Positions 2,158 through 28,815 of a DNA stretch of 64,000 nt are shown here, piece after piece (the stretch's first letter is position 1; the number at the start of each line of letters is the position of its first letter). Source of the DNA: Micromonospora echinaurantiaca (GTDB taxonomy: Bacteria; Actinomycetota; Actinomycetes; Mycobacteriales; Micromonosporaceae). The notes beneath the pieces are model-generated. The model was not told the origin of the DNA, made no database searches, and saw only the letters and a list, made by a program, of their open reading frames with translations. A program made the translations under genes and the position numbers. The stretch covers positions 434,001 to 498,000 of the forward strand of contig NZ_LT607750.1 in the NCBI RefSeq assembly GCF_900090235.1. Direction: 5' to 3'.

Positions 2158-2175
2158 ACTGAACGGTAACTTAGA
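2158..2175 (+). promoter_or_regulatory. EMC dyad operator, site 1 (ecm)
   Basis: ACTGAACGGTAACTTAGA. It matches the motif shared by five promoters of acyl-CoA genes in this window (invariant GAAC at positions 4-7, T at 14, G at 17). It overlaps the proposed -10 TAGACT at 2172-2177, as expected of a repressor site. The function is inferred only from recurrence and position. Confidence 0.6.
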
Positions 2176-2177
2176 CT
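2172..2177 (+). promoter_or_regulatory. -10 element of a leaderless ecm promoter
   Basis: TAGACT fits TANNNT and lies exactly six bases before the ecm ATG, which puts the transcription start at or next to the A of ATG. No Shine-Dalgarno sequence precedes the start. The same TAGACT-N6-ATG layout recurs at the aldehyde dehydrogenase gene. Confidence 0.5.
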
Positions 2178-2183
2178 CCGGCC

Positions 2184-4190
2184 ATGGACGAGAAGGCTCC
2201 CCCCGGCCGGCTGCCCGAGCGCGACCGCCCCTGGGTGATGCGCACCTACGCCGGGCACTCCTCGGCCGCCGCGACCAACGCGCTCTTCCGCCGCAACCTG
2301 GCCAAGGGGCAGACCGGCCTGTCGGTCGCCTTCGATCTGCCCACCCAGACCGGTTACGACCCCGACCACGAACTCGCCGCCGGCGAGGTCGGCCGGGTCG
2401 GGGTGCCGGTCGCCCACCTCGGCGACATGCGGGCCCTCTTCGACGGCATCCCGCTGGCCGAGATGAACACCTCGATGACCATCAACGCGCCGGCGATGTG
2501 GCTGCTCGCCCTCTACGGCACGGTCGGCGCCGAGCAGGGGGCCGAGCTGGCCCGCTGCGCGGGCACCACGCAGAACGACATCATCAAGGAGTACCTGTCC
2601 CGAGGGACGTACATCTTCCCGCCCGCGGCGTCGCTGCGGCTCACTGCGGACGTCATCGCGTACACGCTGCGCGAGATGCCCCGCTGGAACCCGGTCAACA
2701 TCTGCTCGTACCACCTCCAGGAGGCCGGCGCGACGCCGGTGCAAGAGGTCGGCTTCGCGCTGGCCACCGCAGTCGCCGTGCTCGACGCGGTACGCGACTC
2801 CGGCCAGGTGCCCGCCGAGCGGATGGGCGACGTGGTGCAGCGGATCTCGTTCTTCGTCAACGCCGGGGTCCGCTTCGTCGAGGAGATCGCCAAGATGCGC
2901 GCCTTCGGCGCGCTCTGGGACGAGATCACCCGGGACCGCTACGGGGTGGAGAACCCGAAGCAGCGGCGGTTCCGCTACGGCGTACAGGTCAACTCGCTGG
3001 GGCTGACCGAGGCGCAGCCGGAGAACAACATCCAGCGGATCGTGCTGGAGATGCTCGGCGTCACGCTCTCCCGGGACGCCCGGGCCCGCGCCGTGCAGCT
3101 GCCGGCCTGGAACGAGGCGCTCGGCCTGCCCCGGCCGTGGGACCAGCAGTGGTCGCTGCGCATGCAGCAGGTCCTGGCGTACGAGTCGGACCTGCTCGAG
3201 TACCCGGACCTGTTCGCCGGCTCGCACGTGATGACCGCGCTGGTCGACGAGATCGTCACCGGGGCCCGGGTCGAGCTGGCGAAGGTGCTGGAAATGGGCG
3301 GCGTGGTCACCGCCGTGGAGACCGGCTACCTGAAGAGCGCGCTGGTCGCCTCGCTGGCCGAGCGGCGGCGCCGGATGGAGGCCGGCACCGACGTGGTGGT
3401 CGGCGTCAACCGGTTCACCGAGACCGAGCCGTCGCCGCTGACCGCGGCCGGCGCCGAGGCGATCGAACAGGTGGACCCGGCGGTGGAGAAGTCCGCCGCG
3501 GTCGCCGTACGCGAATGGCGGGCCAACCGGGACGCGGCCGCCGTCGACGCGGCCCTGGCCCGGCTCCGCGCGGACGCCGCGACCAGCACGAACCTGATGC
3601 CGGCGACGCTGGAGTGCGTGCGGGCCGGGGTGACCACCGGCGAGTGGGCCGGCGCGCTGCGGCAGGTCTTCGGCGAGTACCGGGCGCCGACCGGGCTGGC
3701 CGGTGGCGCCGGGGCCGGCGCGGACGCCGGGCTCGCCGGGGTGCGGGAGCGGGTCGCCGCCACCGCCCGCGAGCTGGGCAGCGGCCGGCTGCGGCTGCTG
3801 GTCGGCAAGCCCGGCCTGGACGGGCACTCCAACGGCGCCGAGCAGATCGCGGTACGCGCCCGCGACGCCGGCTTCGAGGTGGTCTACCAGGGCATCCGGC
3901 TGACCGCCGGACAGATCGTCGCCGCCGCCGTCGAGGAGGACGTGGACCTGGTCGGGCTCTCCGTGCTCTCCGGCTCGCACCTGGCCGCGGTGCCCGCGGT
4001 GCTGGACGGGCTGCGTGCCGCCGGCCGGTCGGACCTGCCCGTGGTGGTCGGCGGCATCATCCCGGCGGCCGACGCGGAGCAACTGCGCGCCGCCGGGGTG
4101 GCCCGGGTCTTCACGCCGAAGGACTTCGCTCTCACCGGCATCATCGACGAGCTCGTCACCGTGGTTCGGCAGGCCAACGGTCTGCGCTGA
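2184..4190 (+). CDS. ecm: Ethylmalonyl-CoA mutase (MeaA/Ecm), B12-dependent
   Basis: 668 residues. It is a fused acyl-CoA mutase: a TIM-barrel catalytic domain (about 1-515) and a C-terminal cobalamin domain (about 530-668) with DGHSNG (His548 as lower Co ligand), SVLSGSH and VVVGGIIP. Y22 in RTYAGHS and R140 in LSRGTY are the carboxylate-binding pair found in methylmalonyl- and ethylmalonyl-CoA mutases. The text (TQTGYDPDHELAAGEVGRVG, YHLQEAGATPVQE) matches the MeaA/Ecm clade of Streptomyces rather than MutB, so the likely reaction is (2R)-ethylmalonyl-CoA to (2S)-methylsuccinyl-CoA. A -10-like TAGACT lies six bases before the ATG, so the mRNA is probably leaderless. An 18-bp dyad overlaps this promoter. 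Confidence 0.88.
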   Translation: MDEKAPPGRLPERDRPWVMRTYAGHSSAAATNALFRRNLAKGQTGLSVAFDLPTQTGYDPDHELAAGEVGRVGVPVAHLGDMRALFDGIPLAEMNTSMTINAPAMWLLALYGTVGAEQGAELARCAGTTQNDIIKEYLSRGTYIFPPAASLRLTADVIAYTLREMPRWNPVNICSYHLQEAGATPVQEVGFALATAVAVLDAVRDSGQVPAERMGDVVQRISFFVNAGVRFVEEIAKMRAFGALWDEITRDRYGVENPKQRRFRYGVQVNSLGLTEAQPENNIQRIVLEMLGVTLSRDARARAVQLPAWNEALGLPRPWDQQWSLRMQQVLAYESDLLEYPDLFAGSHVMTALVDEIVTGARVELAKVLEMGGVVTAVETGYLKSALVASLAERRRRMEAGTDVVVGVNRFTETEPSPLTAAGAEAIEQVDPAVEKSAAVAVREWRANRDAAAVDAALARLRADAATSTNLMPATLECVRAGVTTGEWAGALRQVFGEYRAPTGLAGGAGAGADAGLAGVRERVAATARELGSGRLRLLVGKPGLDGHSNGAEQIAVRARDAGFEVVYQGIRLTAGQIVAAAVEEDVDLVGLSVLSGSHLAAVPAVLDGLRAAGRSDLPVVVGGIIPAADAEQLRAAGVARVFTPKDFALTGIIDELVTVVRQANGLR

Positions 4191-4194
4191 GGCC

Positions 4195-4230
4195 CCCGCC
4201 GTCACCGACCACCGGGGCGGTGGCGGCGGG
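4195..4230. terminator. Convergent hairpin after ecm
   Basis: A 13-bp stem (4195-4207 with 4218-4230, one T/G wobble) and a 10-base loop lie between the convergent ecm and DUF1540 genes. There is no U tract, as is usual in actinobacteria. It could serve both strands. Confidence 0.6.
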
Positions 4231-4255
4231 TCAGCGCTGGTTGTCGCTCAGGCGA

Positions 4256-4555
4256 TCAGCGCTGGTCGTAGGTGATGCAGTCGGCCATGTCGTTGTCCGG
4301 ACCGACCTTGATCGCCGGCGCGTGGCACTCCAACTGGTCGTTGTGCCGGCAGTCGGCCCGCTGGCAGGCGCCGACCTGCGCGATGAGGCCGTCCACGCCG
4401 GCCTGGACGGTGGGCAGTTCGATGAACGTCCGGCAGTGCGCGTGGTCCATGCTGCCGATAGTGATGGCGAACGCGTGGCAGTCGCCGGTGTGGTTGTACC
4501 CGCAGGCCACCACCACGCACTCCTGAACTCGGGGCATCTCCATCGCTGCGGTCAT
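4256..4555 (-). CDS. DUF1540 protein with two Cys motifs
   Basis: 99 residues. Start at ATG 4553-4555, seven bases after AGGAGG. The protein consists of two copies of the DUF1540 pattern. The first is CVVVACGYNHTGDCHAFAIT followed by a later Cys in HAHC. The second is CQRADCRHNDQLECHAPAIK, ending near ADCITYD. Such four-Cys modules probably bind a metal, but no biochemical role is established for the family. There is no signal peptide, so it is presumably cytoplasmic. It lies 59 bp downstream of the deacetylase gene on the same strand and may share its transcript, but the strong ribosome site suggests independent expression. Confidence 0.85.
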   Translation of the reverse strand: MTAAMEMPRVQECVVVACGYNHTGDCHAFAITIGSMDHAHCRTFIELPTVQAGVDGLIAQVGACQRADCRHNDQLECHAPAIKVGPDNDMADCITYDQR

Positions 4556-4614
4556 GCCGACCTCCTCTAGTCCTGCGTGAATTCTACTGATTTGCCGGCC
4601 TTCCGGACCGGGAT

Positions 4615-5541
4615 TCAGCCCTGCCCGAGCACCTCCGAGAGCGGCGCCGGCTCCAGGCCGCGCTCGGCCAGGCCGGCCAGGATGTGCGGCAGCGCCTCGT
4701 CGGTCATCGGCGCGTTCGCCTCCGTCACGTGCAGGATGATCACCGAGCCCGGGCGGACCCCGTCCAGCGCCGCCCGCACCACCGGTCGCCAGGACTTCGC
4801 GAACGGGTCGCCGCTGACCACGTCCCCGTCCACCACGGTCAGCCCCAGCGGTGCCAGCGCGTCGAGCGCGTTGCGGTCGTGGCACAGGCCGGGGAAGCGG
4901 AAGTACCGGGTCTGCCGCCCGCCGTACCCGGCCACCAGGTCGAACGTCCGGGCCACGTCGGCGGTCATCTCCCGCTCGGGTACGCGGGGGAGGCCGTAAC
5001 AGTCCGGGGTGAAGGCCAGATGCCCGTACGTGTGGTTGGCCAGCTCGAAGCGCGGGTTCGCGGCCAGGCGGCGGGTGAGCGCCGGGTACTGCTCGACCCA
5101 CATGCCGGTGAGGAAGAAGGTGGCCGGCACCCCCTCCCGCTCCAGCAGGTCGATGATCTTCAGGTTCGCGTACGACCGCACCGCGCCGCTGCGCAGCTGG
5201 CGCCGCATCGCGCCGGTCATGTCCGCGTCGAAGGTGAGCGCCACCTTGTTCCCGGTACGCGGCCCGTGGTCGACGACGGGAGGCACGCTCCCGACCGGGG
5301 TGGCGCCCGGCAGTTCCGGGCCGATCCCGGGCCGGGCGGTGACGGGCGGTGCCGAGGCGGGTGCCGATGCCCGCGGCGTCGCCGGTGCCGGGGACTGCGT
5401 GGCGGGTACCGCCGCCGGCATCCGGACCATGCCGGCGCTGGCCGGCGTACGGAGCGGGCTGGGGCCGGTCAGCAGGGCGGCCGCCGCGGCCACGGCGGCG
5501 AGGACCGCGACGACTGGAACGCGGGGAATCTTCACGGGCAC
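4615..5541 (-). CDS. Secreted polysaccharide deacetylase (NodB domain, CE4)
   Basis: 309 residues from GTG at 5539-5541. The first residues, VPVKIPRVPVVAVLAAVAAA, form an N-terminal membrane or signal segment, followed by a Pro/Ala-rich spacer to about residue 90 and a NodB domain. Metal and catalytic motifs are visible: LTFDADM (the Asp-Asp region, with one extra residue compared with the usual TFDD), HTYGH (metal His pair), RFPG, and ILHV near the end. CE4 enzymes remove acetyl groups from chitin, peptidoglycan or xylan, and nothing here identifies the substrate. Open frame continues upstream of the GTG but is Arg/Pro-rich with no signal sequence, so the internal GTG was preferred. Confidence 0.85.
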   Translation of the reverse strand: MPVKIPRVPVVAVLAAVAAAAALLTGPSPLRTPASAGMVRMPAAVPATQSPAPATPRASAPASAPPVTARPGIGPELPGATPVGSVPPVVDHGPRTGNKVALTFDADMTGAMRRQLRSGAVRSYANLKIIDLLEREGVPATFFLTGMWVEQYPALTRRLAANPRFELANHTYGHLAFTPDCYGLPRVPEREMTADVARTFDLVAGYGGRQTRYFRFPGLCHDRNALDALAPLGLTVVDGDVVSGDPFAKSWRPVVRAALDGVRPGSVIILHVTEANAPMTDEALPHILAGLAERGLEPAPLSEVLGQG

Positions 5542-5686
5542 CGCAAGATGATCGCAGCGCCGCCTCGGCTCGTGTGGCCGGGACCAGCGGGCCGGTAGCC
5601 GGAAGCGACCGGTGGCGGTGGGGCGGTCGCTCCGGTCTCGGGTCGTGGCCCGCAACCGACCTTGCGGTCAGCTGGGCGCAGGAGGG

Positions 5687-5735
5687 GGTGTGGCCCGCCG
5701 TGACGGGCTTTGGGCGGTCGGGCTTGCGGTTGCGT
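5687..5735 (+). repeat. Partial copy of 70-bp palindromic element
   Basis: Starts GGTGTGGCCCGCCGTGAC and continues with GGGCGGTCGGGCTTG, matching the left two-thirds of the full element at 5774. The right arm is missing. Confidence 0.6.
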
Positions 5736-5773
5736 CGGGGTTTGCTTGCGGTGGGTGGGTGGTTGCGGTTGGG

Positions 5774-5843
5774 GGTGTGGCCCGCCGTGACCGGCTCCGG
5801 GCGGTCAGGCTTGATCCCTGCGCCGGTCACAGCGGGCCACACC
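5774..5843 (+). repeat. 70-bp palindromic intergenic element, copy A
   Basis: The outer arms are an inverted repeat: 22 bases starting GGTGTGGCCCGCCGTGAC against a right arm ending in CAGCGGGCCACACC, 21 of 22 paired. The centre reads GGGCGGTCAGGCTTGATCCC. A near-identical copy lies in reverse orientation at 8095-8164. It may be a REP-like or MITE-like element, or a spreading terminator. Its mobility is unproven. Confidence 0.75.
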
Positions 5844-5844
5844 C

Positions 5845-6127
5845 TCGCCGTGGTCCAGCTCCGTCGGCCGCGGACGGCGACTGGATGCACGTCTGCGCCG
5901 CGGCGCGGTCATGGTGGGCCGACGTTGTCGTGGTCCAGCTCCGCTCGTGCGGTCACGGTAGGCCCATCGTTGTCGTGGTTCGGGTCCGCTCGGCTGGTCG
6001 CGGCGGGCCTTGTCGTGGTTCAGTCCGCCCGGCTGGTCGCGGCGGGCGAACCTTCGTCGGGGGTCAGGTCCGCTCAGTGCGCTCTTGTCGTGGTCCGGGT
6101 CCGTTCGTGCCGCCGGTGCCGGGGCCG
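5845..6127 (+). repeat. Degenerate 40-45 bp direct repeats
   Basis: Five imperfect copies begin near 5845, 5925, 5970, 6010 and 6085. Each starts close to TTGTCGTGGTCCAGCTCCG and runs into GCTGGTCGCGGCGGGCC. Spacing is 80, 45, 40 and 75 bp. The drift between copies suggests an old tandem array. Confidence 0.5.
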
Positions 6128-6203
6128 GTTCGCTCGTCCCGTCCGGCGTGCGCTGGCTGGCGGCCGGTCGGTTCGGGCGTGTCGGCGGGGGCTACGTTGT
6201 CCG

Positions 6204-6247
6204 AGAGGTTGATACCTCTGAGTCATCAATATGCCGCTGAGGTATCA
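6204..6247. promoter_or_regulatory. Operator-like dyad in an A+T-richer patch
   Basis: TGATACCTC at 6210-6218 is repeated inverted as GAGGTATCA at 6239-6247. A nested short hairpin, AGAGGT-TGAT-ACCTCT, lies at 6204-6219. The patch is clearly lower in GC than its surroundings. The arms suit a dimeric regulator. The next large gene is 780 bp downstream, so the target is unknown. Confidence 0.35.
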
Positions 6248-6531
6248 CGCTCGTTCCTCCGTGAACCCACCGGCACGAGGGCGCCCGGTGGGATCCCGAC
6301 CGGTTGGGATGGAACTTCAGCGGGCGATCCGGACATTCCGCGCGTCAGGCTTCGTGGGCGTGCGGGCCCGTCGTCGTTTCGCCGATGTGGCGGTATCGAC
6401 CCGTGCGGGATAACCCCATATCGGCGACACGGAGTCGATCACCCCGTCCGGCCCGTCGGCCGGGCTGGTGGTTCGACCCGTGAGTGGGGTGTTTGTCGGT
6501 TTGTGGGTGTGACCGGCGGCATCCGGGTGGT

Positions 6532-6559
6532 GGAATCGGGGCCGGGTCGGGGGCGTTAC
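6532..6559 (+). promoter_or_regulatory. ECF-type promoter 1 of 4
   Basis: GGAAT at 6532-6536, 17 bases, then CGTTAC at 6554-6559. This fits -35 GGAAT/GGAAC and -10 CGTT or GTT of SigE/SigR-type ECF sigma factors. It is the most diverged of four copies and lies 86 bp before the next. Confidence 0.5.
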
Positions 6560-6617
6560 ATCATGCGGACGATCGAGCAAGGGCACGCCGCCGGCCACGG
6601 CCGGCCCGGGGCCTGGC

Positions 6618-6645
6618 GGAATGATGGCGGGCGGCCGGTCGTTAC
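6618..6645 (+). promoter_or_regulatory. ECF-type promoter 2 of 4
   Basis: GGAAT at 6618-6622, 17 bases, CGTTAC at 6640-6645. Directly followed by ATCCCCCGGCGATCGCAGCA, which is repeated exactly after copy 3. Confidence 0.55.
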
Positions 6646-6705
6646 ATCCCCCGGCGATCGCAGCAACGGTCCCGTCTGGCTCCAACCGATGAGGGTCGTG
6701 GCCCC

Positions 6706-6733
6706 GGAATGATGGGGTGCTGGCGGTCGTTAC
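6706..6733 (+). promoter_or_regulatory. ECF-type promoter 3 of 4
   Basis: GGAAT at 6706-6710, 17 bases, CGTTAC at 6728-6733, preceded by GGCCCC as in copy 4. It starts 88 bp after copy 2 and 88 bp before copy 4. Confidence 0.6.
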
Positions 6734-6793
6734 ATCCCCCGGCGATCGCAGCAACACCCCGCCCGGCAAGAGCCGGGTGAGGGTTCTGGCCCC

Positions 6794-6821
6794 GGAATGA
6801 TGGTGGGCTGGCGGTCGTTAC
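6794..6821 (+). promoter_or_regulatory. ECF-type promoter 4 of 4
   Basis: GGAAT at 6794-6798, 17 bases, CGTTAC at 6816-6821. It is nearest to the lysozyme-like gene, leaving a leader of about 200 nt before the ATG at 7025. The sequence after the -10 differs from copies 2 and 3. Confidence 0.6.
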
Positions 6822-7024
6822 ACCCAGTCCGGCACCGCGCAGGGCACCCCCGCCCGCTGGTGTGCCGGGCATCTGGCACCGGCCAGGGCATCCCCCGCCC
6901 GGCGAGAGTGCCGAGAGTGTCGAGTAGGTCTTTCCCCGAGTCTTTCTGGGCGCCTGATGGTGCTTGCGCCCCTTATGGCCCGTCCCCCCGGGCTGGTGGC
7001 GTCATCCCCCGAAGGAGCTTTGTG

Positions 7025-7618
7025 ATGAACACGATCATGCGTAAGAGCGTTCTGGGTATTGCTGGTCTGGCTTTCGCCGGTGGCATCGCCGCTGGCCCCG
7101 CCACGCACGCTGACACCACCTCGGTCGAGGCCGTGAAGCCGGTTGCCGTGGTGCAGGCTGACAAGCCGGGTGTCGATAAGGCGAAGCTGATTCCGCATGG
7201 TGTGCAGGGTGAGCAGTCGCGCATCGAGCTCGACGGTGAGCAGGTGGAGAACGTGAAGGCGATCATCGCGGCGACGAAGAAGTCCGACATGGACGAGCGC
7301 GCCGCCGTGGTGGCGATCGCTACCGCGCTGCAGGAGTCGAAGCTGGAGAACCTGGGTCACCTGGGTGACCGGAATGACCACGACTCGCAGGGCCTGTTCC
7401 AGCAGCGCCCGTCCAGCGGTTGGGGCACGGTGGAGCAGATCACCGACCCCGAGTACTCGACCAAGGCGTTCCTGAAGGGCCTCAAGCAGGTCGACGGCTG
7501 GCAGGACATGCCGCTGACCAAGGCCGCCCAGACCGTGCAGGTGTCGGCCTACCCGTTCCACTACGCCCAGTGGGAGCAGCAGGCCGCCGACCTCGTCGCC
7601 GAGCACTGGAACAACTGA
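7025..7618 (+). CDS. Secreted lysozyme-like protein
   Basis: 197 residues. ATG at 7025, six bases after AAGGAG. A Sec signal peptide (MNTIMRKSVLGIAGLAFAGG, cleavage likely after ATHA) is followed by about 60 polar residues and then a lysozyme-superfamily domain (about 80-197). Its signature is a catalytic-type Glu in ALQESKLEN, then DSQGLFQQRPSSGWGT, DPEYSTKAFLKGL and FHYAQWEQQAADL, as in actinobacterial and phage muralytic domains. The likely role is peptidoglycan cleavage outside the cell, for growth, branching or germination. The gene stands alone, preceded by four tandem ECF-like promoters and followed by strong hairpins. Codon use is less GC-extreme than that of its neighbours (GGTATTGCTGGTCTG), which may mean high expression. 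Confidence 0.8.
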   Translation: MNTIMRKSVLGIAGLAFAGGIAAGPATHADTTSVEAVKPVAVVQADKPGVDKAKLIPHGVQGEQSRIELDGEQVENVKAIIAATKKSDMDERAAVVAIATALQESKLENLGHLGDRNDHDSQGLFQQRPSSGWGTVEQITDPEYSTKAFLKGLKQVDGWQDMPLTKAAQTVQVSAYPFHYAQWEQQAADLVAEHWNN

Positions 7619-8875: not shown

Positions 8876-8934
8876 CGTCTCAGCATCGCACCGGCACGCC
8901 AGTGCCGCTCGGTGGCGTCGGCCGGCGTCTCCGC

Positions 8935-8940
8935 TACCCT
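8935..8940 (+). promoter_or_regulatory. -10 element of a leaderless nucS promoter
   Basis: TACCCT six bases before the GTG start of nucS, with no Shine-Dalgarno sequence. It has the same spacing as the TAGACT elements at ecm and the aldehyde dehydrogenase gene. Confidence 0.45.
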
Positions 8941-8946
8941 CGTCGG

Positions 8947-9606
8947 GTGCGGTTGGTGATTGCGAAGTGCTCGGTGGACTACGTCGGACGGCTCTCGGCC
9001 CACCTGCCGCCGGCCACCCGGTTGCTGATGGTGAAGGCGGACGGGTCGGTGTCCATCCACGCCGACGACCGGGCGTACAAGCCACTCAACTGGATGAGCC
9101 CGCCGTGCCGGCTGGAGGAGGCACCGGGCGTCTGGCGGGTGGTCAACAAGGCCGGCGAGGAGCTGCGGATCACCCTGGAGGAGATCTTCCAGGACACCTC
9201 GTACGACCTGGGTGTCGACCCGGGCCTGCGCAAGGACGGCGTGGAGGCGCACCTGCAGGAACTGCTGGCGGCCAACCCGACGGCGCTGGGCGAGGGCTTC
9301 ACGCTGATCCGCCGGGAGTACATGACCGCGATCGGCCCGGTCGACCTGCTCTGCCGGGACGGGCAGAACGCCACGGTCGCCGTCGAGGTGAAGCGCCGGG
9401 GCGAGATCGACGGCGTCGAGCAGCTCACCCGCTACCTGGAACTGCTCAACCGCGACCCGCTGCTGGCCCCGGTGGCCGGTGTCTTCGCGGCACAGGAGAT
9501 CAAGCCGCAGGCCCGGGTGCTCGCCACCGACCGGGGGATCCGCTGCGTGGTGGTGGACTACGACAAGCTGCGCGGCATCGAGCGGGACGAGCTGACCCTG
9601 TTCTGA
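8947..9606 (+). CDS. nucS: Mismatch-specific endonuclease NucS (EndoMS)
   Basis: 219 residues from GTG at 8947 ([20 protein letters not shown]). N-terminal DNA-binding and dimerisation half; C-terminal RecB-like nuclease half with the D-(E/x)VK core in [10 protein letters not shown] and [17 protein letters not shown]. NucS cuts both strands at G:T, G:G and T:T mismatches and provides non-canonical mismatch repair in actinobacteria that lack MutS/MutL. The protein ends in ELTLF, in keeping with the C-terminal beta-clamp-binding tail of bacterial NucS. Length is typical. The gene is single and divergent from the DUF4126 gene. Confidence 0.95.
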
Positions 9607-13358: not shown

Positions 13359-13376
13359 CCTTAGTGGCCGTTCATG
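13359..13376 (-). promoter_or_regulatory. EMC dyad operator, site 2 (fused dehydrogenase)
   Basis: Plus strand CCTTAGTGGCCGTTCATG; minus strand CATGAACGGCCACTAAGG. It shares GAAC-N6-CTAAGG with the other sites. It overlaps a -10-like TAACCT (13356-13361) and lies 31-48 bp before the chosen GTG start. Confidence 0.55.
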
Positions 13377-13406: not shown

Positions 13407-15197
13407 GTGGCGCGCGAGTTCAGCAGCGTGGGCGTGGTGGGACTGGGCACCATGGGTGCCGGCATCGTCGAGGTCTTCGCCCGCAACGGCATCGACGTGG
13501 TCGCGGTCGAGATCTCCGACGCCGCGCTGGAGCGCGGCCGGGCCACCCTGACCGGCTCCACCGACCGGGCGGTGGCCAAGGGCAAGCTCGCCGAGGCCGA
13601 CCGGGACGCCCTGCTGGCCCGCGTCGACTGGCAGGTGGGGCTGGACGCGCTGCACTCGGTCGACCTGGTGATCGAGGCGGTGCCCGAGCACCTCGACCTG
13701 AAGCAGCGGATCTTCGCCGAGCTGGACCGGGTCTGCAAGCCCGAGGCGATCCTGGCCACCAACACCTCGTCGCTGAGCGTCACCGAGATCTCGGTCGCCA
13801 CCACCCGGCCCAATCAGGTCATCGGCATCCACTTCTTCAACCCGGCGCCGGTCATGAAGCTGGTCGAGGTGGTCCGGACGGTGGTCACCTCGGCCGACGT
13901 GGTCGCCGACGTGGAGGCGCTCTGCGAGCGGCTGGGCAAGGTCGACGTCACCATCAACGACCGGGCCGGCTTCATCGCCAACGCGCTGCTGTTCGGCTAC
14001 CTCAACCACGCGGTCGGCATGTTCGAGTCGCACTACGCCAGCCGCGAGGACATCGACGCGGCCATGAAGCTCGGCTGCGGCCTGCCGATGGGTCCGCTCG
14101 CCCTGATGGACCTGATCGGCCTGGACACGGCGTACGAGATCCTGGACACCATGTACCGGCGCGGCGGCCGGGACCGCCGGCACGCCCCGGTGCCGCTGAT
14201 CAAGCAGATGGTCACCGCGGGGCTGCTGGGCCGCAAGTCCGGCCGGGGCTTCTACACCTACGAGCGGCCCGGCTCGCCGGTGGTCGTACCGGACGAGCAG
14301 ACGCCGGTGGCGACGGGGTCGGCGCTGGCCGACGGCGCCCGGGCCATCGCCAAGGTCGGCGTGGTCGGCTCCGGGACGATGGCGACCGGGATCATCGAGG
14401 TGTTCGCCAAGGCCGGCTACGAGGTCGTCTCGGTGACCCGGGGTGCGGAGAAGTCGGCCAAGGTCTGCGAGGCGGTCAAGACCTCGCTGAACAAGGGCGT
14501 GGTGCGGGGCAAGCTCAGCGAGGCCGACCGGGACGCGGCGCTGGGCCGGGTCACCTGGTCCGCCGCCCTGGACCACCTCGCCGACGTCGACCTGGTGGTC
14601 GAGGCGGTGGTCGAGGAACTCAGCGTCAAGAAGGCCCTCTTCGCCAGCCTCGACGAGATCTGCAAGCCGGGCGTGGTGCTCGCCACCACCACCTCGTCGC
14701 TGCCGGTGATCGACGTCGCGATGGCCACCCAGCGGCCGGCCGACGTGGTCGGGCTGCACTTCTTCAACCCGGCCCCGATCATGCCGTTGGTGGAGATCGT
14801 GCAGACCATCCGCACCTCGGCGGAGACCACCGCCACCGCCCGCGCGGTCTGCGCGGCGCTGGGCAAGACCGGCGTGGTCTGCGGCGACCGGTCCGGTTTC
14901 ATCGTCAACGCGCTGCTCTTCCCGTACCTGAACGACGCGGTGAAGATGCTGGAGGCGAGCTACTCCACCGCCGACGACATCGACTACGCGATGAAGCTGG
15001 GCTGCGGCTACCCGATGGGCCCGTTCGAGCTGCTCGACGTGGTCGGCCTGGACGTCTCGCTGGCCATCCAGCGCGAGCTCTACCTGGAGCTGCGCGAGCC
15101 GGGCTTCGCGCCCGCGCCACTGCTGGAGCACCTGGTGACCGCCGGCTACCTGGGCCGCAAGAGCGGTCGCGGGTTCCGCGACCACACCAACCGCTGA
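13407..15197 (+). CDS. Tandem-fused 3-hydroxybutyryl-CoA dehydrogenase
   Basis: 596 residues made of two complete dehydrogenase units. Unit 1 (about 1-290) has the Rossmann motif VGLGTMGAGI, TNTSSLS, HFFNPAPVMKLVEVV and RAGFIANALL. Unit 2 (about 313-596) has VGSGTMATGI, TTTSSLP, HFFNPAPIMPLVEIV and RSGFIVNALL. Both keep the catalytic His-Glu pair, Ser and Asn and the C-terminal GPFELLD/GPLALMD helix region, so both look active. The reaction is (S)-3-hydroxybutyryl-CoA with acetoacetyl-CoA, which supplies crotonyl-CoA to Ccr. The start was set to GTG 13407, six bases after GGGGAGG; an ATG at 13374 lies inside the dyad operator. Standard family length is about 285, so this is a duplication-fusion. 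Confidence 0.9.
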   Translation: MAREFSSVGVVGLGTMGAGIVEVFARNGIDVVAVEISDAALERGRATLTGSTDRAVAKGKLAEADRDALLARVDWQVGLDALHSVDLVIEAVPEHLDLKQRIFAELDRVCKPEAILATNTSSLSVTEISVATTRPNQVIGIHFFNPAPVMKLVEVVRTVVTSADVVADVEALCERLGKVDVTINDRAGFIANALLFGYLNHAVGMFESHYASREDIDAAMKLGCGLPMGPLALMDLIGLDTAYEILDTMYRRGGRDRRHAPVPLIKQMVTAGLLGRKSGRGFYTYERPGSPVVVPDEQTPVATGSALADGARAIAKVGVVGSGTMATGIIEVFAKAGYEVVSVTRGAEKSAKVCEAVKTSLNKGVVRGKLSEADRDAALGRVTWSAALDHLADVDLVVEAVVEELSVKKALFASLDEICKPGVVLATTTSSLPVIDVAMATQRPADVVGLHFFNPAPIMPLVEIVQTIRTSAETTATARAVCAALGKTGVVCGDRSGFIVNALLFPYLNDAVKMLEASYSTADDIDYAMKLGCGYPMGPFELLDVVGLDVSLAIQRELYLELREPGFAPAPLLEHLVTAGYLGRKSGRGFRDHTNR

Positions 15198-15237: not shown

Positions 15238-15732
15238 GTGACCTTCGAGGAGTACGTCGGCAGCCGCGGCCCGGCCCTGATCCGGCTGGCCCGGCTGCTG
15301 ACCGGCGACGCACACCGGGCCGAGGACCTCACCCAGGACGTGCTGGCCCGGGCGTACGTGCACTGGCGCCGGATCGCCCGCACCGACCGGCCCGACGTGT
15401 ATGTGCGCCGGATGCTGGTGAACGCGAACACCTCCTGGTGGCGGCGGCGGTCCAGCCGCGAGGTGGCGGTCGCCAGCTTCACCGAGCGCCCCCAGCGGGG
15501 CGACCTCGGCGGCGAGGCGGCCGACCGGGACGAGATGTGGCGGCTGATCAGCGCCCTGCCCGACCGCCAACGCGCCGTGCTGGTGCTGCGCTACTACGAG
15601 GACCTGGACGACGTGACGATCGCCCAGATCCTGGACTGCTCCCCGGTCACCGTCCGCACCCACGCGATGCGGGCGCTCGCCCACCTCCGGGAGCGCTGCG
15701 GCGTCCCGACGACCAAGGGGAGCCGGCCGTGA
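15238..15732 (+). CDS. SigE-family ECF sigma factor
   Basis: 164 residues. Region 2 runs through EYVGSRGPALIRLARLLTGD and HRAEDLTQDVLARAY. Region 4 is LPDRQRAVLVLRYYEDLDDVTIAQIL followed by the HTH CSPVTVRTHAMRALAHLR. This is the pattern of the actinobacterial SigE-family RNA polymerase sigma factors. GTG at 15238 directly follows GGAGG, a tight spacing. The stop overlaps the start of the next gene (GTGA), so it is translationally coupled to a membrane protein that probably controls it. The target promoter is unknown. The tandem GGAAT-N17-CGTT sites at 6532-6821 are formally candidates for any ECF factor. Confidence 0.92.
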   Translation: MTFEEYVGSRGPALIRLARLLTGDAHRAEDLTQDVLARAYVHWRRIARTDRPDVYVRRMLVNANTSWWRRRSSREVAVASFTERPQRGDLGGEAADRDEMWRLISALPDRQRAVLVLRYYEDLDDVTIAQILDCSPVTVRTHAMRALAHLRERCGVPTTKGSRP

Positions 15733-23548: not shown

Positions 23549-23555
23549 GTCGCCG

Positions 23556-23591
23556 CCGGTCGCGGGCACTCGAATGGGTGCCCGCGACCGG
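23556..23591 (-). terminator. Terminator 2 after ccr
   Basis: Perfect 14-bp stem CCGGTCGCGGGCAC (23556-23569) with GTGCCCGCGACCGG (23578-23591). Tandem with the previous hairpin, 53 bp after the ccr stop. Confidence 0.8.
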
Positions 23592-23644
23592 TGCGGAATG
23601 GCGATCGACCGTTGCGGCAATCGTCGCCGGCGGCCCCTGTCGGG

Positions 23645-25000
23645 TCAGTGGCCGCGGAACCGGTTGATCGCGTCCTCGTGCCGGGACCGCAGCTCCGGGT
23701 CGCGGACGCCGAGCCCGTCGGCCGGGGCGAGGCAGCGGACGCCGACCTTGCCCTGGTGCGCGTTGCGGTGCACCTCGTACGCGGCCTGGCCGGTCTGCTC
23801 CAGCGGGTAGGTCCTCGACACCGTGGGGTGGATCTTCCCGAGCGCCACCAGCCGGTTGGCCTCCCACGCCTCCCGGTAGTTGGCGAAGTGGCTGCCGACG
23901 ATGCGCTTGAGGTGCATCCAGAGGTAACGGTTGTCGTACTGGTGCTGGTATCCGCTGGTGGAGGCGCAGGTGACGATGGTGCCGCCGCGCTTGGTCACGT
24001 AGACGCTCGCGCCGAAGGTCTCCCGGCCTGGGTGCTCGAAGACGATGTCCGGGTCCTCGCCGCCGGTCAGCTCCCGGATCCGCTCGCCGAAGCGCCGCCA
24101 CTCGTCCTGGTCCTGGGTCTGCTCGTCCTTCCAGAACCGGAAACCCTCGGCGGCCCGGTCGATGACCAGCTCGGCGCCCATCCTGCGGCACAGCTCGGCC
24201 TTGTCCGGACTGGACACCACGCAGACCGGGATGGCGCCGCCGTTGAGCGCCATCTGGGTGGCGTAGCCGCCCAGGCCGCCGGAGGCGCCCCAGATCAGCA
24301 CCACGTCACCCTGCTTCATGTTGGCGCCGTGGTGCGAGACCAGCTGCCGGTACGCGGTGGAGTTCACCAGCCCCGGGCTGGCCGCCTCCTCCCAGCTCAG
24401 GTGCCGCGGTTTGGGCATCAGCTGGTTGGCCTTGACGATGGCCAGTTCGGCGAGGCCGCCGAAGTTGGTCTCGAAGCCCCAGATCCGCTGCTGCGGGTCG
24501 AGCATGGTGTCGTCGTGCCCGGCCGCGTCCTCCAGCTCGACAGAGAGGCAGTGCGCGACCACCTCGTCGCCGGCGGACCACCGGGTCACCCCCGGCCCGG
24601 TCCGCAGCACCACGCCGGCGGCGTCCGACCCGACCACGTGGTACGGCAGGTCGTGCCGCTTGGTCAGCTCGGAGAGCCGGCCGTAGCGCTGGAGGAACTT
24701 GAAGGTGGACAGCGGCTCGAAGATGCTGGTCCAGACGGTGTTGTAGTTGATGGCGCTGGCCATCACCGCGATCAGCGCCTCGCCCGGGCCGAGCTCCGGC
24801 GTCGGCACCTCCTGCACGTGCAGCGCCTTGCGCGGGTCCTTGTCCCGGGTGGCCATGCCGTCGAACATCCGGGTCTCGTCGGCGCGTACCACGACGCCGC
24901 GGTAGGACTCGGGCACGGGCAGCCCGGCGAGACCGGCGAGTTCCCGCTCCGGTTGCGCGGAGCCTTCCGCCGACATGATCGCTTCGAGGATGTCCTGCAC
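23645..25000 (-). CDS. ccr: Crotonyl-CoA carboxylase/reductase
   Basis: 451 residues. It reductively carboxylates crotonyl-CoA with NADPH and CO2 to (2S)-ethylmalonyl-CoA, the key step of the ethylmalonyl-CoA pathway and the source of C4 polyketide extender units. It is a medium-chain dehydrogenase/reductase: ASAINYNTVWTSIFEPLSTF at the active site, PYHVVGSDAAGVV, WGFETNFGGLAE, nucleotide motif IWGASGGLGGYA, FEHPGRETFG, and the C-terminal HQGKVGVRCLAPADGLGVRD. The start was set to GTG 24998-25000, which follows GGAGG by six bases and aligns with the usual Ccr N-terminus (VQDILEAI). An in-frame ATG at 25051 is possible. A dyad operator sits about 130 bp upstream. Confidence 0.93.
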   Translation of the reverse strand: MQDILEAIMSAEGSAQPERELAGLAGLPVPESYRGVVVRADETRMFDGMATRDKDPRKALHVQEVPTPELGPGEALIAVMASAINYNTVWTSIFEPLSTFKFLQRYGRLSELTKRHDLPYHVVGSDAAGVVLRTGPGVTRWSAGDEVVAHCLSVELEDAAGHDDTMLDPQQRIWGFETNFGGLAELAIVKANQLMPKPRHLSWEEAASPGLVNSTAYRQLVSHHGANMKQGDVVLIWGASGGLGGYATQMALNGGAIPVCVVSSPDKAELCRRMGAELVIDRAAEGFRFWKDEQTQDQDEWRRFGERIRELTGGEDPDIVFEHPGRETFGASVYVTKRGGTIVTCASTSGYQHQYDNRYLWMHLKRIVGSHFANYREAWEANRLVALGKIHPTVSRTYPLEQTGQAAYEVHRNAHQGKVGVRCLAPADGLGVRDPELRSRHEDAINRFRGH

Positions 25001-25130
25001 GGTGACCTCCGGTTCGTCCGCACCCGTGCGCACGGGCCTGGGTGCTGCCATCGTCGGCGCCGGGGCGGCCGTTAACCATGTCGACGTCCGACACATCCGG
25101 GACCGACCGCGTTCCGATGGGCCGGACGTT

Positions 25131-25148
25131 ACTGAACGGTAGCTAGGG
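25131..25148 (+). promoter_or_regulatory. EMC dyad operator, site 3 (ccr)
   Basis: ACTGAACGGTAGCTAGGG. The first ten bases equal site 1. On the minus strand it contains TACCGT, a possible ccr -10, giving a leader of about 130 nt. Confidence 0.55.
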
Positions 25149-25365
25149 CCGGAAGTCCTCTGTGAAAAACCGCATCGACCGATGCGTGAAGGTGCCCGGG
25201 TGAACGTTGAACCGCGCACTGCCGTGCTTGCCGCCGGCGCGCCGGCCGGCACGACGGGTGGTCCCGGCGGGGGTCGCGGTGCCCCCGGGTCCCGCGCATC
25301 CGGTCGGCGGTACGGCCGGACGCGCCGCGCCCCGACGCTCTCCGGCGGCGCGCGGCGCGTCTGCG

Positions 25366-25854
25366 TCAGTGCGTGGCCGACTCGGCCGACTCGGCCGGCT
25401 CGACCAGCTCGACCAGGACGCCACCGGCGTCCTTCGGGTGCACGAAGTTGATCCGGGAGTCGGCGGTGCCGCGCTTCGGGGTCTCGTAGAGCAGCCGTAC
25501 GCCGCGCTCGCGCAGCGCCGCGCAGGCCGCGTCGATGTCCGCCACGGTGTACGCCACCTGCTGCACCCCGGGGCCGTTGCGGTCCAGGAACTTCGCGATG
25601 GTCGACTCCGGCGTCAGCGGGGCGAGCAGTTGCACGCAGCCACCCTCGGTGGTCGGCCCGACGGCCAGCATCGCCTCGCGGACGCCCTGTTCGGCGTTGG
25701 TCTCGGTGTGCACGCAGCGCATCCCGAACGTCCGCTGGTAGAAGTCGATCGCGGCGTCCAGGTCGGCCACGGCGATCCCGACGTGGTCGATGCGGCGCAG
25801 CCCGATGTCTGTGACATAGTCGGCAGCGGTCTCGACGGGGGAGTTCTCAGCCAT
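25366..25854 (-). CDS. mce: Ethylmalonyl-CoA/methylmalonyl-CoA epimerase
   Basis: 162 residues. A vicinal-oxygen-chelate fold: metal ligands in IDHVGIAVADLDAA, CVQLLAPLTPES, GVQQVAYTVADIDAA and GVLVELVEP; FYQRTFG and SRINFVHPKD agree with methylmalonyl-CoA epimerases, which in this pathway also act on ethylmalonyl-CoA. It converts the Ccr product to the isomer used by Ecm. The C-terminus EPAESAESATH is a small local duplication. ATG at 25852-25854 has no Shine-Dalgarno sequence, but CAGACT lies six bases upstream as in a leaderless promoter. It is divergent from the acetyltransferase gene with a shared dyad operator between them. Confidence 0.92.
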   Translation of the reverse strand: MAENSPVETAADYVTDIGLRRIDHVGIAVADLDAAIDFYQRTFGMRCVHTETNAEQGVREAMLAVGPTTEGGCVQLLAPLTPESTIAKFLDRNGPGVQQVAYTVADIDAACAALRERGVRLLYETPKRGTADSRINFVHPKDAGGVLVELVEPAESAESATH

Positions 25855-25866
25855 GGCGCTAGTCTG

Positions 25867-25884
25867 GCCGAACAATCGTTAAGG
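25867..25884 (+). promoter_or_regulatory. EMC dyad operator, site 4 (mce / acetyltransferase)
   Basis: GCCGAACAATCGTTAAGG in the 62-bp divergent gap. It lies 13 bp from the epimerase ATG and 33 bp from the acetyltransferase ATG, so one bound dimer could control both directions. Confidence 0.55.
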
Positions 25885-25916
25885 CGTACAGGTCGGCACC
25901 CCCCTCGGAGGCAGGT

Positions 25917-27116
25917 ATGGCTTCGGTGATCGTCAGCGGCGCGCGGACCCCCATGGGGCGCCTGCTGGGCAACCTCAAGGACCTCCCGGCGACCAAGCTC
26001 GGCGGCGTGGCGATCAAGGCGGCGCTGGAGCGCGCCGGCGTCGCGCCCGAGCAGGTGCAGTACGTGATCATGGGTCAGGTGCTCCAGGCCGGCGCCGGGC
26101 AGATCCCGGCCCGGCAGGCGGCGGTCGAGGCGGGCATCCCGATGTCCGTACCGGCCCTGACCATCAACAAGGTCTGCCTCTCCGGCCTGGACGCGATCGC
26201 CCTGGCCGACCAGCTGATCCGGGCCGGCGAGTTCGACATCGTGGTGGCTGGCGGCATGGAGTCGATGACCAACGCCCCGCACCTGCTGCTCGGCCAGCGC
26301 GGCGGCTACAAGTACGGCGACGTGGTGGTCAAGGACCACATGGCGCTGGACGGCCTGACCGACGCCTGGGACTGCTGCTCGATGGGCGAGTCGACCGAGC
26401 GGCTCGGCGCCAAGCACGGCATCAGCCGGGCGGAGCAGGACGAGTTCGCCGCGGCCAGCCACCAGCGGGCCGCCGCCGCGCAGAAGAACGGGCACTTCGC
26501 CGAGGAGATCGCCCCGGTGGTCATCCCGCAGCGCAAGGGCGACCCGCTGGTGATCAGCGAGGACGAGGGCGTCCGGCCGGACACCACGGCCGAGACGCTG
26601 GGCAAGCTGCGTCCCGCGTTCACCAAGGACGGGACCATCACCGCCGGCAGCTCCTCGCCGATCTCCGACGGCGCCGCCGCGGTGGTGGTAATGAGCAAGG
26701 CCAAGGCCAAGGAGCTGGGGCTGACCTGGCTGGCCGAGATCGGCGCGCACGGCAACGTGGCCGGCCCGGACAACTCCCTGCACTCGCAGCCGTCCAACGC
26801 CATCCAGCACGCGCTGCGCAAGGGCGGGCTGAGCGTCGACGACCTGGACCTGATCGAGATCAACGAGGCGTTCGCCCAGGTCGGCATCCAGTCCATGCGT
26901 GACCTCGGTGTCGGCCCGGAGAAGGTCAACGTCAACGGTGGGGCGATCGCGCTGGGCCACCCGATCGGCATGTCCGGCGCCCGGCTGGTGCTCACCCTCG
27001 CGCTGGAGCTGAAGCGGCGGGGCGGCGGCACCGGCGCGGCCGCCCTCTGCGGCGGCGGTGGCCAGGGCGACGCGCTGATCATCCACGTCCCGGCCGCCGG
27101 CGAGAGCGGTCAGTGA
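25917..27116 (+). CDS. atoB: Acetyl-CoA acetyltransferase (thiolase)
   Basis: 399 residues. Biosynthetic thiolase: acyl-accepting Cys87 in [26 protein letters not shown], catalytic His in [16 protein letters not shown], and the second Cys in [11 protein letters not shown]. It joins two acetyl-CoA to acetoacetyl-CoA, the entry step to the ethylmalonyl-CoA pathway. ATG at 25917 follows GGAGG by five bases. The stop overlaps the meaB start by 4 bp (GTGA), so the two are coupled. A dyad operator lies 33-50 bp upstream. Confidence 0.95.
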
Positions 27117-28132
27117 GCGACGCGATCGTGAGCGAGACCGTCGACAGCGTCCCGGCGGCGGGCACCGGGTCGGTGCGCCGCAGCCGGGACGTGCCGATGC
27201 TGGTCGAGCGGGCCCGCGCGGGTGACCCCCGCGCGGTGGCCCGGCTGATCACCCTGGTCGAGTCCGGCGACGAGACGCTGCCGCGGATCGCCGCGGCGCT
27301 GGCGCCGTACGCCGGCCAGGCCCAGGTGGTCGGGCTGACCGGTTCCCCCGGCGTGGGCAAGTCCACCACCACCAACGAGCTGGTCCGGGCGTTGCGCGCC
27401 CGCGGTCACCGGGTGGGCGTGCTGGCCATCGACCCGTCCAGCCCGTTCACCGGCGGCGCGATCCTCGGCGACCGGGTGCGGATGCAGGACCACGCCACCG
27501 ATCCGGGCGTCTACATCCGGTCGATGTCCAGCCGGGGCCACCTCGGCGGGCTCTCCGCGGCGACCCCGCAGGCGGTCCGGGTGCTGGAGGGCGCCGGCTG
27601 CGACGTGGTGCTGGTCGAGACCGTCGGGGTCGGGCAGGCGGAGGTGGAGGTCGCCTCGCTGGCCGACACCACGTTGGTGCTGCTCGCCCCCGGGATGGGC
27701 GACGCCATCCAGGCGGTCAAGGCCGGCATCCTGGAGATCGCCGACGTCTTCGTGGTGAACAAGGCCGACCGGGACGGCGCCGACGCCACGGTGCGCGACA
27801 TCCAGGGCATGATCGCGCTCGGCGAGCGCGGGCCGGGCCAGTGGCGCCCGCAGGTGGTGCGCGCCGTCGCCGCGCGCGGCGAGGGGATCGACGACATCGC
27901 GGCCGCGATCGACAAGCACCGCGGTTGGCTGGTCGAGCACGGCGAGCTGCGCCGCCGGCAGGAGACGCGGGCCGCCGCCGAGATCGAGGCGATCGCGCTC
28001 GGCGCGCTGCGCGACCGGATCGGCTCGCTGCGCGACGGTACGGAGCTGCCGGCGCTCGCCGCGAAGGTGGCCGAGGGGGCGCTGGACCCGTACGCGGCGG
28101 CGGACGAGCTGCTCAGCCAGCTCGGCTCCTGA
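27113..28132 (+). CDS. meaB: MeaB/ArgK-type GTPase, B12-mutase chaperone
   Basis: 339 residues from GTG 27113. G3E GTPase: Walker [15 protein letters not shown], switch region [35 protein letters not shown], and NKADRDGAD as the guanine-specificity motif. MeaB proteins load, gate and repair adenosylcobalamin on acyl-CoA mutases. Two mutases are encoded in the window (Ecm and IcmA). The gene sits between the acetyltransferase and icmA, so either may be its client. The C-terminal dimerisation arm (about 260-339) is present. It is coupled to the upstream thiolase gene. Confidence 0.93.
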
Positions 28133-28344
28133 CCGTCCCGCCGGTTCCGCCCGGCCGGCCCCGCCCGGCCGGTGCCGTGTCCACCCCGGACCGCCCGGAA
28201 CTAGTACGCTCGCACCGCTCCACGGTCGGCGTGGGGCGGTGGTGTGCGGCCGGAGTGGGAGAGCATGAGCGAGCGCCAGCGAGCGAATCATCAATGCAGT
28301 GCGGCGGTGCCTCAGGGCGGCACGGAGCGCAGCGGAGGGCCGGC

Positions 28345-28758
28345 GTGAGCGACGAGGCGACGCGGGAACTGTCGGTGACGCCGGACGCGGTGGCGGGCGG
28401 AACGACCTCCGTCTCGGACGAGGTCGTGGAGAAGATCGCGGTGGCCGCCGCGCGGTCGGTGCCCGGGGTGGTGGAGCTGGGCGGCGACGTGGCGCGGTTC
28501 TTCAACTCGGTGCTCGACCGGGTCGGGCTGGACAAGGTCGGCGACGCCACGCGCGGCGCCTCGGCGCACGTGACCAACGGTGCGGCGGTGGTCAACCTGG
28601 TCATCGTGATCGAGGCGGGCCGGACGGTCCCCGAGGTGACCGAGGCGGTCCGGGCGAAGGTGACCGAGGCGGTCGAGGCGTACGGGCTGCGGGCGGACGA
28701 GGTCAACATCCGGGTCGACGACGTGGCCCTGGGCGAGTCCGCCGCGCCGACCGCCTGA
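28345..28758 (+). CDS. Asp23/Gls24 family envelope stress protein
   Basis: 137 residues from GTG 28345, seven bases after GGAGGG. The fold is recognisable from SDEVVEKIAVAAARSVPGVVEL, AAVVNLVIVIEAGRTVPEV and VRAKVTEAVEAYGLRADEVNIRVDDV. Asp23-like proteins are abundant cytosolic or membrane-associated factors linked to cell-wall stress, and their biochemical role is unclear. A -10-like TACGCT lies at 28205-28210. The leader contains GAGCGAGCGCCAGCGAGCG, which may belong to a dispersed repeat. It lies between meaB and icmA but has its own leader. Confidence 0.85.
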   Translation: MSDEATRELSVTPDAVAGGTTSVSDEVVEKIAVAAARSVPGVVELGGDVARFFNSVLDRVGLDKVGDATRGASAHVTNGAAVVNLVIVIEAGRTVPEVTEAVRAKVTEAVEAYGLRADEVNIRVDDVALGESAAPTA

Positions 28759-28797
28759 GCCTCCGGGGCGCCCCCGGTTACCGGCCGGTACGACTTC

Positions 28798-28815
28798 CCT
28801 TAGCGATCGTTCAGG
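28798..28815 (-). promoter_or_regulatory. EMC dyad operator, site 5 (icmA)
   Basis: Plus strand CCTTAGCGATCGTTCAGG, the most symmetric site (core CGATCG); minus strand CCTGAACGATCGCTAAGG. It lies just upstream of the -10-like TACACT at 28825-28830, over the -35 region. Confidence 0.6.

Follow-up and report, generated by a model that had tools for sequence, protein, structure and literature searches.

An operator-like dyad at ethylmalonyl-CoA pathway promoters of Micromonospora echinaurantiaca and its candidate AccR/BkaR-like regulator

A stretch of 64,000 nucleotides from Micromonospora echinaurantiaca (contig NZ_LT607750.1, contig positions 434,001 to 498,000; hereafter the window, whose numbering is used for the five sites and their genes) carries genes of the ethylmalonyl-coenzyme A (CoA) pathway and of isobutyryl-CoA mutase, and an earlier note on this DNA had pointed to a dyad shared by five of their promoters. 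The question raised by this locus is whether the dyad is a true operator and, if so, which protein would act on it. The window sites are variants of the palindrome CTGAACG-NN-CGTTCAG, which also occurs well outside the window. The motif is best read as the operator of one single-copy TetR regulator, encoded beside leucine-catabolism genes and predicted to control the pathway genes jointly; a probability of about 0.8 is assigned to this reading. The sites recur in relatives, and the same motif is found at the regulator's own promoter and that of accD1 (acyl-CoA carboxylase beta subunit) as at those of icmA (isobutyryl-CoA mutase large subunit) and hbd (3-hydroxybutyryl-CoA dehydrogenase).

Motif and candidate regulator

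The lead to the regulator came from three genomes of the family (L148-L150), in which a site at a distance of 33 bp precedes a TetR gene close to genes assigned by eye to acyl-CoA carboxylase and 3-hydroxy-3-methylglutaryl-CoA (HMG-CoA) lyase. The orthologue in M. echinaurantiaca (contig 6,407,451-6,408,071) has 207 amino acids and is 81% identical to the L148 protein; the next-best TetR match in this genome reaches only 32% identity, so there is no close paralogue. At this locus (L190) the regulator gene is followed by genes for biotin carboxylase (by eye), HMG-CoA lyase, accD1 and an acyl-CoA dehydrogenase, the last three assigned by Pfam/NCBIfam. The protein has a TetR DNA-binding domain at residues 26-72 (PF00440, 62.2 bits). 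Its best NCBIfam model is NF050111 (SACE_7040 family), with 226.9 bits here and 225.6 bits for the L148 protein; both fall below the curated cut-off of 250, and the regulator is therefore named AccR/BkaR-like and not filed as a SACE_7040 equivalog. The closest solved structures by sequence (4g12, 6yj2 and 6yl2; E ~1e-42) are labelled 'Probable transcriptional regulatory protein', and we take them to be Rv2506/BkaR. In line with the earlier note, which saw no such regulator in the window, none of 33 TetR matches falls there, and no Pfam TetR domain was found in the 20 window open reading frames (ORFs) searched.

For 29 genomes, a palindrome-constrained Gibbs search was run on the 220 bp in front of the TetR gene, without any pathway sequence in the input. 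It converged on CTGAACGATCGTTCAG with a score of 451, whereas two shuffled sets gave 243-254 at best; the site is clear in 16 of the 29 promoters. A matrix of these 16 sites, none of which comes from M. echinaurantiaca, places the five sites of the earlier note as the top five of the window. The same matrix was applied to an orthologue set of 30 genomes from 27 genera, own genome included (28 for hbd, as two lack a close homologue and their hits L382 and L383, at 43-45% identity, were left out). It exceeds the 99% shuffle threshold upstream of icmA in 29 of 30 genomes and upstream of hbd in 21 of 28, and none of 232 control windows from these loci reaches 11. Of the 30 icmA-set genomes, 29 carry the regulator as a single copy (E 1e-40 or better); the exception (G202) is an 810-contig assembly. 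Upstream of accD1, a site scoring at least 17 is present in all 70 loci with an accD1 match, versus 0 of 700 shuffles; these loci derive from the best 80 of 147 TetR matches, ten of which had no accD1 match. In M. echinaurantiaca the accD1 site is CCTGAACGATCGTTAGGC, with a score of 22.3. On these sequence comparisons, the regulator of the shared sites is very probably the AccR/BkaR-like TetR protein.

Sites in the window

All five sequences were verified at the coordinates and strands given in the earlier note. Its gene layout needs correcting in that ccr and mce are minus-strand genes, and in that the divergent mce and thiolase genes flank the mce site. The sites and their genes are as follows.

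2158..2175, plus strand: operator before ecm, ACTGAACGGTAACTTAGA; covers the -10-like TAGACT, 3' end 8 bp from the ATG
2184..4190, plus strand: ecm-like acyl-CoA mutase, target gene; methylmalonyl-CoA mutase-type N- and C-terminal domains
13359..13376, minus strand: operator before the fused 3-hydroxybutyryl-CoA dehydrogenase gene, CATGAACGGCCACTAAGG
13407..15197, plus strand: fused two-copy 3-hydroxybutyryl-CoA dehydrogenase; two matches to 3-hydroxybutyryl-CoA dehydrogenase models, GTG start after GGGGAGG
23645..25051, minus strand: ccr, crotonyl-CoA carboxylase/reductase; TIGR01751, 615.8 bits (cut-off 378.55) over 23648-24967; start uncertain, the ATG at 25051 being one option
25131..25148, plus strand: operator before ccr, ACTGAACGGTAGCTAGGG; ccr itself on the minus strand
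25366..25854, minus strand: mce, methylmalonyl/ethylmalonyl-CoA epimerase; TIGR03081, 139.2 bits (cut-off 114.95)
25867..25884, plus strand: operator between the divergent mce and thiolase genes, GCCGAACAATCGTTAAGG
25917..27116, plus strand: acetyl-CoA acetyltransferase (thiolase); TIGR01930, 458 bits
27113..28132, plus strand: presumed meaB-type mutase chaperone GTPase (ORF and sequence; family assigned by eye); its start lies within the 3' end of the thiolase gene
28798..28815, minus strand: operator before icmA, CCTGAACGATCGCTAAGG; 9 bp upstream of the -10-like TACACT
28868..30556, plus strand: icmA, isobutyryl-CoA mutase large subunit; TIGR00641, 664.4 bits, searched from codon 2 (28871)

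The ecm assignment is that of the earlier note, and NCBIfam does not resolve ecm identity. For icmA, no C-terminal cobalamin-domain match is listed; the ecm candidate has a cobalamin domain. Some neighbouring genes were also noted: a DrrAB-like ABC transporter pair (342-2110), divergent from ecm, with the ecm site inside the common intergenic region; a NucS endonuclease gene (8902-9606) between ecm and the fused dehydrogenase; and a gene for a SigE-family extracytoplasmic function (ECF) sigma factor (15238-15732) directly after the fused dehydrogenase.

Read along the genes, the sites take the form CCTTAGC-NNN-CGTTCAGG, with variations, in four of five cases, and the ecm site is reversed. The icmA and hbd sites cover the -35 region and the ecm site the -10, while those of mce and the fused dehydrogenase are near the start. 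The mce site, 12-13 bp from the mce start codon, is common to the divergent thiolase-meaB genes; the fused-dehydrogenase site is positioned after TAACCT, and at ccr about 80 bp separate the upstream site from the possible ATG at 25051. A -10-like hexamer follows the site at about equal distance in the icmA and hbd promoters. These variable positions, the use of both orientations and the palindromy fit a repressor that blocks RNA polymerase.

The window by itself is only mildly significant, since its six matches to the core TGAACGNTNRCTAAGG at up to three mismatches (the five sites and one at 46481; shuffled mean 2.15) are reached in 3 of 100 shuffles. With the regulator-promoter matrix, icmA (21.7) and mce (18.3) lead the window, followed by the fused dehydrogenase (11.7), ecm (11.6) and ccr (11.4), with the sixth match at 10.8. 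The top score in 12 window shuffles ranged from 10.0 to 16.6, with a mean of 1.25 matches at 11 or more; the icmA and mce sites therefore stand alone, whereas those of ecm, the fused dehydrogenase and ccr depend on their recurrence in relatives. In the genome, loose patterns show no enrichment, either at two mismatches (16 matches versus 11 in the reversed control, 5 of the 16 in the pathway cluster) or at three (152 versus 138). Inspection by eye put the 11 two-mismatch matches outside the cluster (L006-L016) within coding sequences, at their ends or at unrelated genes, and they were taken as chance; L013, at 5.73 Mb, touches a hydrolase-TetR gene pair.

Recurrence in the genus and the family

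The 15-base consensus CCTGAACGNNNGCTAAGG has just two exact matches in the 7.2 Mb genome, at icmA and hbd. At up to one mismatch it gives 140 matches in 61 genus genomes, own included, versus 17 in the reversed control, and 60 of the 61 have at least one. Support for the motif comes from this stricter consensus and from comparisons between genomes. The earlier proposal of a real, shared, palindromic, TetR-type operator with repressor-like placement is supported.

Promoters were compared in eight further genus genomes and the own genome with the regulator matrix, a misplaced hbd window (G018) being left out. A site is present before icmA in 9 of 9 genomes (score 21.7), before mce in 9 of 9 (12.6-18.3), before the fused dehydrogenase in 9 of 9 (11.7-16.8) and before hbd in all 8 usable genomes (13.5-20.0). 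Own genome included, the ccr site is found in all seven genomes with ccr in the stretch (11.4-15.3) and the ecm site in six of seven at 9.5 or more. In the stretches taken from G012 (L438-L439) and G036 (L448-L449), no ccr or ecm match passed the identity filter. The operator is nonetheless kept in these two genomes before icmA, hbd, the fused dehydrogenase and mce. Identity within the site and in the rest of the upstream region, respectively, is 1.00 and 0.66 for icmA, 0.89 and 0.56 for the fused dehydrogenase, 0.96 and 0.75 for ecm, 0.96 and 0.82 for ccr, 0.80 and 0.62 for hbd, and 0.97 and 0.93 for mce.

In the orthologue set, the first matrix finds the icmA site in 30 of 30 genomes, with a minimum of 18.4 versus a shuffle maximum of 13.7. 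A matrix of the icmA sites of the 29 other genomes places 20 of 28 hbd genes and 8 of 12 ecm-like genes above threshold (a partial match of G202 being left out of the ecm-like set). It also gives an mce/thiolase match of at least 12 in four of eight genomes, and a ccr match in one of eight, where some stretches may exclude ccr. Among the sites of the hbd orthologues, some are of the TTAGC type and others are symmetric TGAACG/CGTTCAG sites. In three g3 genomes (L322-L324) the icmA site is a complete palindrome; these genomes have no match to the ordinary consensus at one mismatch and no site at their hbd genes or TetR promoters.

Twenty family loci picked because a site is present serve as leads and not as tests, as the parent scan at one mismatch has a substantial control background. 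The gene behind the site is citE/malyl-CoA-lyase-like in nine, TetR in three, ilvE (branched-chain aminotransferase) in two, an enoyl-CoA hydratase in one, and mce/thiolase with ccr and icmA in one. At L151:2992, a site scoring 18.5 stands 13 bp before a gene whose protein start resembles L-serine dehydratase by eye. Leads L152 and L153 were dropped, with no match of at least 12 to the regulator matrix.

Further sites in the genome

The hbd site of M. echinaurantiaca (contig 431175-431192, score 16.0) lies 2.8 kb left of the window, before the 3-hydroxybutyryl-CoA dehydrogenase gene. A second, degenerate tandem copy of the operator, CCTGAGCGACCACCAAGG, with a score of 5.6 and near-identical flanks, is found 47 bp off at 431128-431145. 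Sites also precede ilvE (TIGR01123; 20.9), an M24 peptidase-acyl-CoA dehydrogenase pair named by eye (19.6) and an acyl-CoA dehydrogenase gene about 2 kb from citE (19.3), and a weak site (12.2) stands before citE itself. PF03328 is the sole match of the citE-like protein, which may be a malyl-CoA lyase. By their sites, ilvE, citE and the acyl-CoA dehydrogenases are likely further targets beside the pathway genes.

The scan of the genome and its relatives proposed in the earlier note thus largely gave the expected picture, with sites here before hbd, accD1, ilvE, acyl-CoA dehydrogenases and, weakly, citE, and in relatives before citE-like, enoyl-CoA hydratase and TetR genes. Its suggestion that the regulator is dedicated to the ethylmalonyl-CoA pathway does not hold. 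The candidate sits with genes of leucine and short-chain acyl-CoA catabolism, the motif also precedes accD1 and ilvE, and icmA, thiolase and hbd are likewise not specific to that pathway.

Scope outside the family

A class-wide set of 148 genomes included 65 with a ccr match, of which 30 loci were taken, own included; L433 was dropped, as its upstream side is incomplete by contig position. Among the 28 usable loci outside the family, only L420 passes with the regulator matrix, and weakly (14.2, threshold 10.4); the AccR motif of Streptomyces was not scanned for. With one of 28, the recruitment of ccr looks specific to the Micromonosporaceae. An order-wide exact scan outside the family gave 2 matches versus 8 in the reversed control. 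These two matches, L077 (before an acyl-CoA dehydrogenase gene) and L076 (before an enoyl-CoA hydratase gene), with genes assigned by eye, count as weak leads.

Alternative explanations

Several observations count against assigning all of these sites to one regulator. The regulator gene has no site in its own promoter in M. echinaurantiaca, and a clear site is missing from 13 of the 29 regulator promoters, this one included. The TTAGCG-type half that is usual in the pathway sites is absent from the 16 regulator-promoter sites. The scores of the ecm, fused-dehydrogenase and ccr sites (11.4-11.7) are attainable by shuffled sequence, and no above-threshold site is seen at 7 of the 28 hbd orthologues or at 4 of the 12 ecm-like ones. 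The number of 16-bp windows, of 185, that equal or exceed the conservation of the site is 3 for icmA, 15 for ecm, 15 for the fused dehydrogenase, 45 for ccr, 62 for mce and 70 for hbd; genus-level conservation therefore does not single out the site at ccr, hbd or mce.

The alternative that best survives these points is a second TetR protein with TTAGCG/TGAACG specificity that acts on the pathway sites, leaving the AccR/BkaR-like protein to its own locus. The second half of the icmA site is other than CGTTCA in 27 of 30 cases, mostly CGCTAA, and in a distant genome (L133, 3587-4360) an unrelated TetR gene in an acyl-CoA locus has a perfect TTAGCG palindrome, CTTAGCGATCGCTAAG, in its promoter, which again weighs against a single regulator. 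However, the matrix derived from AccR/BkaR-like regulator promoters alone recovers the icmA and hbd sites of most genomes, the hbd orthologues mix both site types, and the sole transcription factor gene behind a site in the 20 picked family loci is the AccR/BkaR-like TetR (three loci). On the TetR genes of this genome that were examined, a second regulator is considered unlikely. The L133 protein was rejected as the same regulator, as it is a different protein with 52% identity over 48 residues only; a nearby acyl-CoA dehydrogenase gene at L133 carries CTGAACGAGCGCTAAG. A TetR gene at 378 kb of the present genome (contig 378094, L163) also has two CTGACCGATCGGTCAG palindromes, 19 bp apart, but adjoins an MMPL-like transporter gene (by eye). 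It was set aside with its own TGACCGATCGGTCA palindromes, and probably encodes a different local regulator with a similar operator.

It is less likely still that the same TetR protein binds and activates, rather than represses, at some of the sites. CcrR of Methylobacterium is an activator of a pathway gene by the title of its paper, and an activator could use the ccr site and the icmA and hbd sites, which lie upstream of a -10-like hexamer. The ecm, mce and fused-dehydrogenase sites, in contrast, are in positions typical of repression, and AccR and BkaR are both described as repressors (PMC10933834, PMC3920632).

It is very unlikely that the shared sequence is a promoter element of an ECF-type sigma factor. 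GAAC resembles ECF -35 boxes, and the SigE-family gene follows the fused dehydrogenase; the motif, however, is palindromic, occurs in either orientation at varying distance to the start, and recurs at the TetR gene's own promoter. A chance likeness of five sites picked by eye, which the window shuffles, the unenriched loose patterns and the three sites within shuffle range would allow, is the least likely reading given the genus scan and the control windows, the orthologue tests refuting chance for icmA and hbd and leaving ecm and ccr least secure.

Proposed mechanism

Under the single-regulator reading preferred here, we infer that the protein physically binds these sites, represses the genes behind them and answers to a ligand. 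A dimer would occupy the 16-bp dyad CTGAACG-NN-CGTTCAG or half-altered variants of it, such as CTTAGCG-AT-CGTTCAG at icmA. Depending on the gene, the bound dimer would cover the -35, the spacer, the -10 or the start region, blocking RNA polymerase and holding off accD1 and ilvE along with thiolase, both hbd genes, ccr, mce, ecm and icmA, and perhaps also the citE-type lyase and the acyl-CoA dehydrogenases. The signal for release may be a short-chain acyl-CoA formed in the metabolism of branched-chain amino acids or of crotonyl-CoA.

For the Micromonosporaceae as a whole, it seems rather probable that a single-copy AccR/BkaR-like repressor, whose control was once local and confined to leucine catabolism, has become a master switch. 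It would jointly derepress the breakdown of branched-chain amino acids (ilvE, accD1), the assimilation of acetyl-CoA (thiolase, hbd, ccr, ecm, mce and the citE-type lyase) and the interconversion of isobutyryl- and butyryl-CoA (icmA). An acyl-CoA signal would thereby determine how much ethylmalonyl- and methylmalonyl-CoA is available for growth and polyketide synthesis. The Micromonosporaceae are known for polyketide antibiotics, and the analysis yields a testable candidate for the regulator of the ethylmalonyl-CoA pathway and of isobutyryl-CoA mutase, enzymes that make polyketide extender units. One switch thus seems to couple amino-acid breakdown to carbon assimilation and to an antibiotic-precursor pathway. 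The single weak ccr site above threshold among the 28 loci outside the family also suggests how a local catabolic repressor may have acquired a central pathway as a new target. Among the matches listed in a topical literature search, titles and abstract openings contain no link of such a regulator to the ethylmalonyl-CoA pathway in Micromonosporaceae.

Comparison with known systems

RamB/PccR of Paracoccus and Rhodobacter likewise tie short-chain acyl-CoA metabolism to assimilation genes, but are described as members of the ScfR family and not as TetR proteins (PMC10370305). CcrR of Methylobacterium extorquens, known here by title, is likewise a TetR-family regulator of an ethylmalonyl-CoA pathway gene, and differs as an activator. 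The SACE_7040 family supplies the best NCBIfam model for the candidate, which differs in falling below its curated cut-off. In Streptomyces albus, an AccR-like gene is reported with locus tags adjacent to acyl-CoA carboxylase genes, and on valine feeding the expression of isobutyryl-CoA mutase rises strongly and that of ccr falls (PMC8176718). The former change is compatible with a branched-chain signal, whereas the latter speaks against simple co-induction in Streptomyces.

AccR of Streptomyces avermitilis is described as a TetR repressor of accD1A1-hmgL-fadE4, echA8, echA9 and fadE2 that recognizes the 16-bp palindrome GTTAA-N6-TTAAC (PMC10933834), with methylcrotonyl-, propionyl- and acetyl-CoA as ligands (PMC8546615). 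The system proposed here is similar in that a TetR gene adjoins accD/accA, hmgL and fadE homologues, in its 16-bp dyad with a 6-base spacer and in the accD1 site, as well as in having acyl-CoA dehydrogenase targets and, in one relative, an enoyl-CoA hydratase target. It differs, by the published description of AccR, in its half-sites, which are TGAAC/GTTCA or TTAGC and not GTTAA. The consensus here is CTGAAC/GTTCAG; TTAAC halves occur in some sites only, and the exact AccR half-sites GTTAA/TTAAC were not found as its consensus. A further difference is that icmA, ccr, ecm, mce, hbd, the citE-type lyase and ilvE are absent from the AccR target list in the available part of the review (PMC10933834).

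BkaR/Fad35R (MSMEG_4718, Rv2506) represses a divergent operon, with accD1 and citE among its genes, in M. smegmatis, through a 16-bp dyad with the core GTTA(N)T(N4)A(N)TAAC, and 10 genes are reported as directly controlled (PMC3920632). It is a repressor with a dyad spacing equal to that of the motif described here, and citE is already in its operon. BkaR is autoregulated, whereas the regulator gene of the present genome has no site of its own, with a clear one in 16 of the 29 regulator promoters compared. BkaR differs in that none of its 10 genes is named, in the available part of that paper, as an ethylmalonyl-CoA or isobutyryl-CoA mutase gene (PMC3920632). The type of regulator is thus already known, and what is new is the target set.

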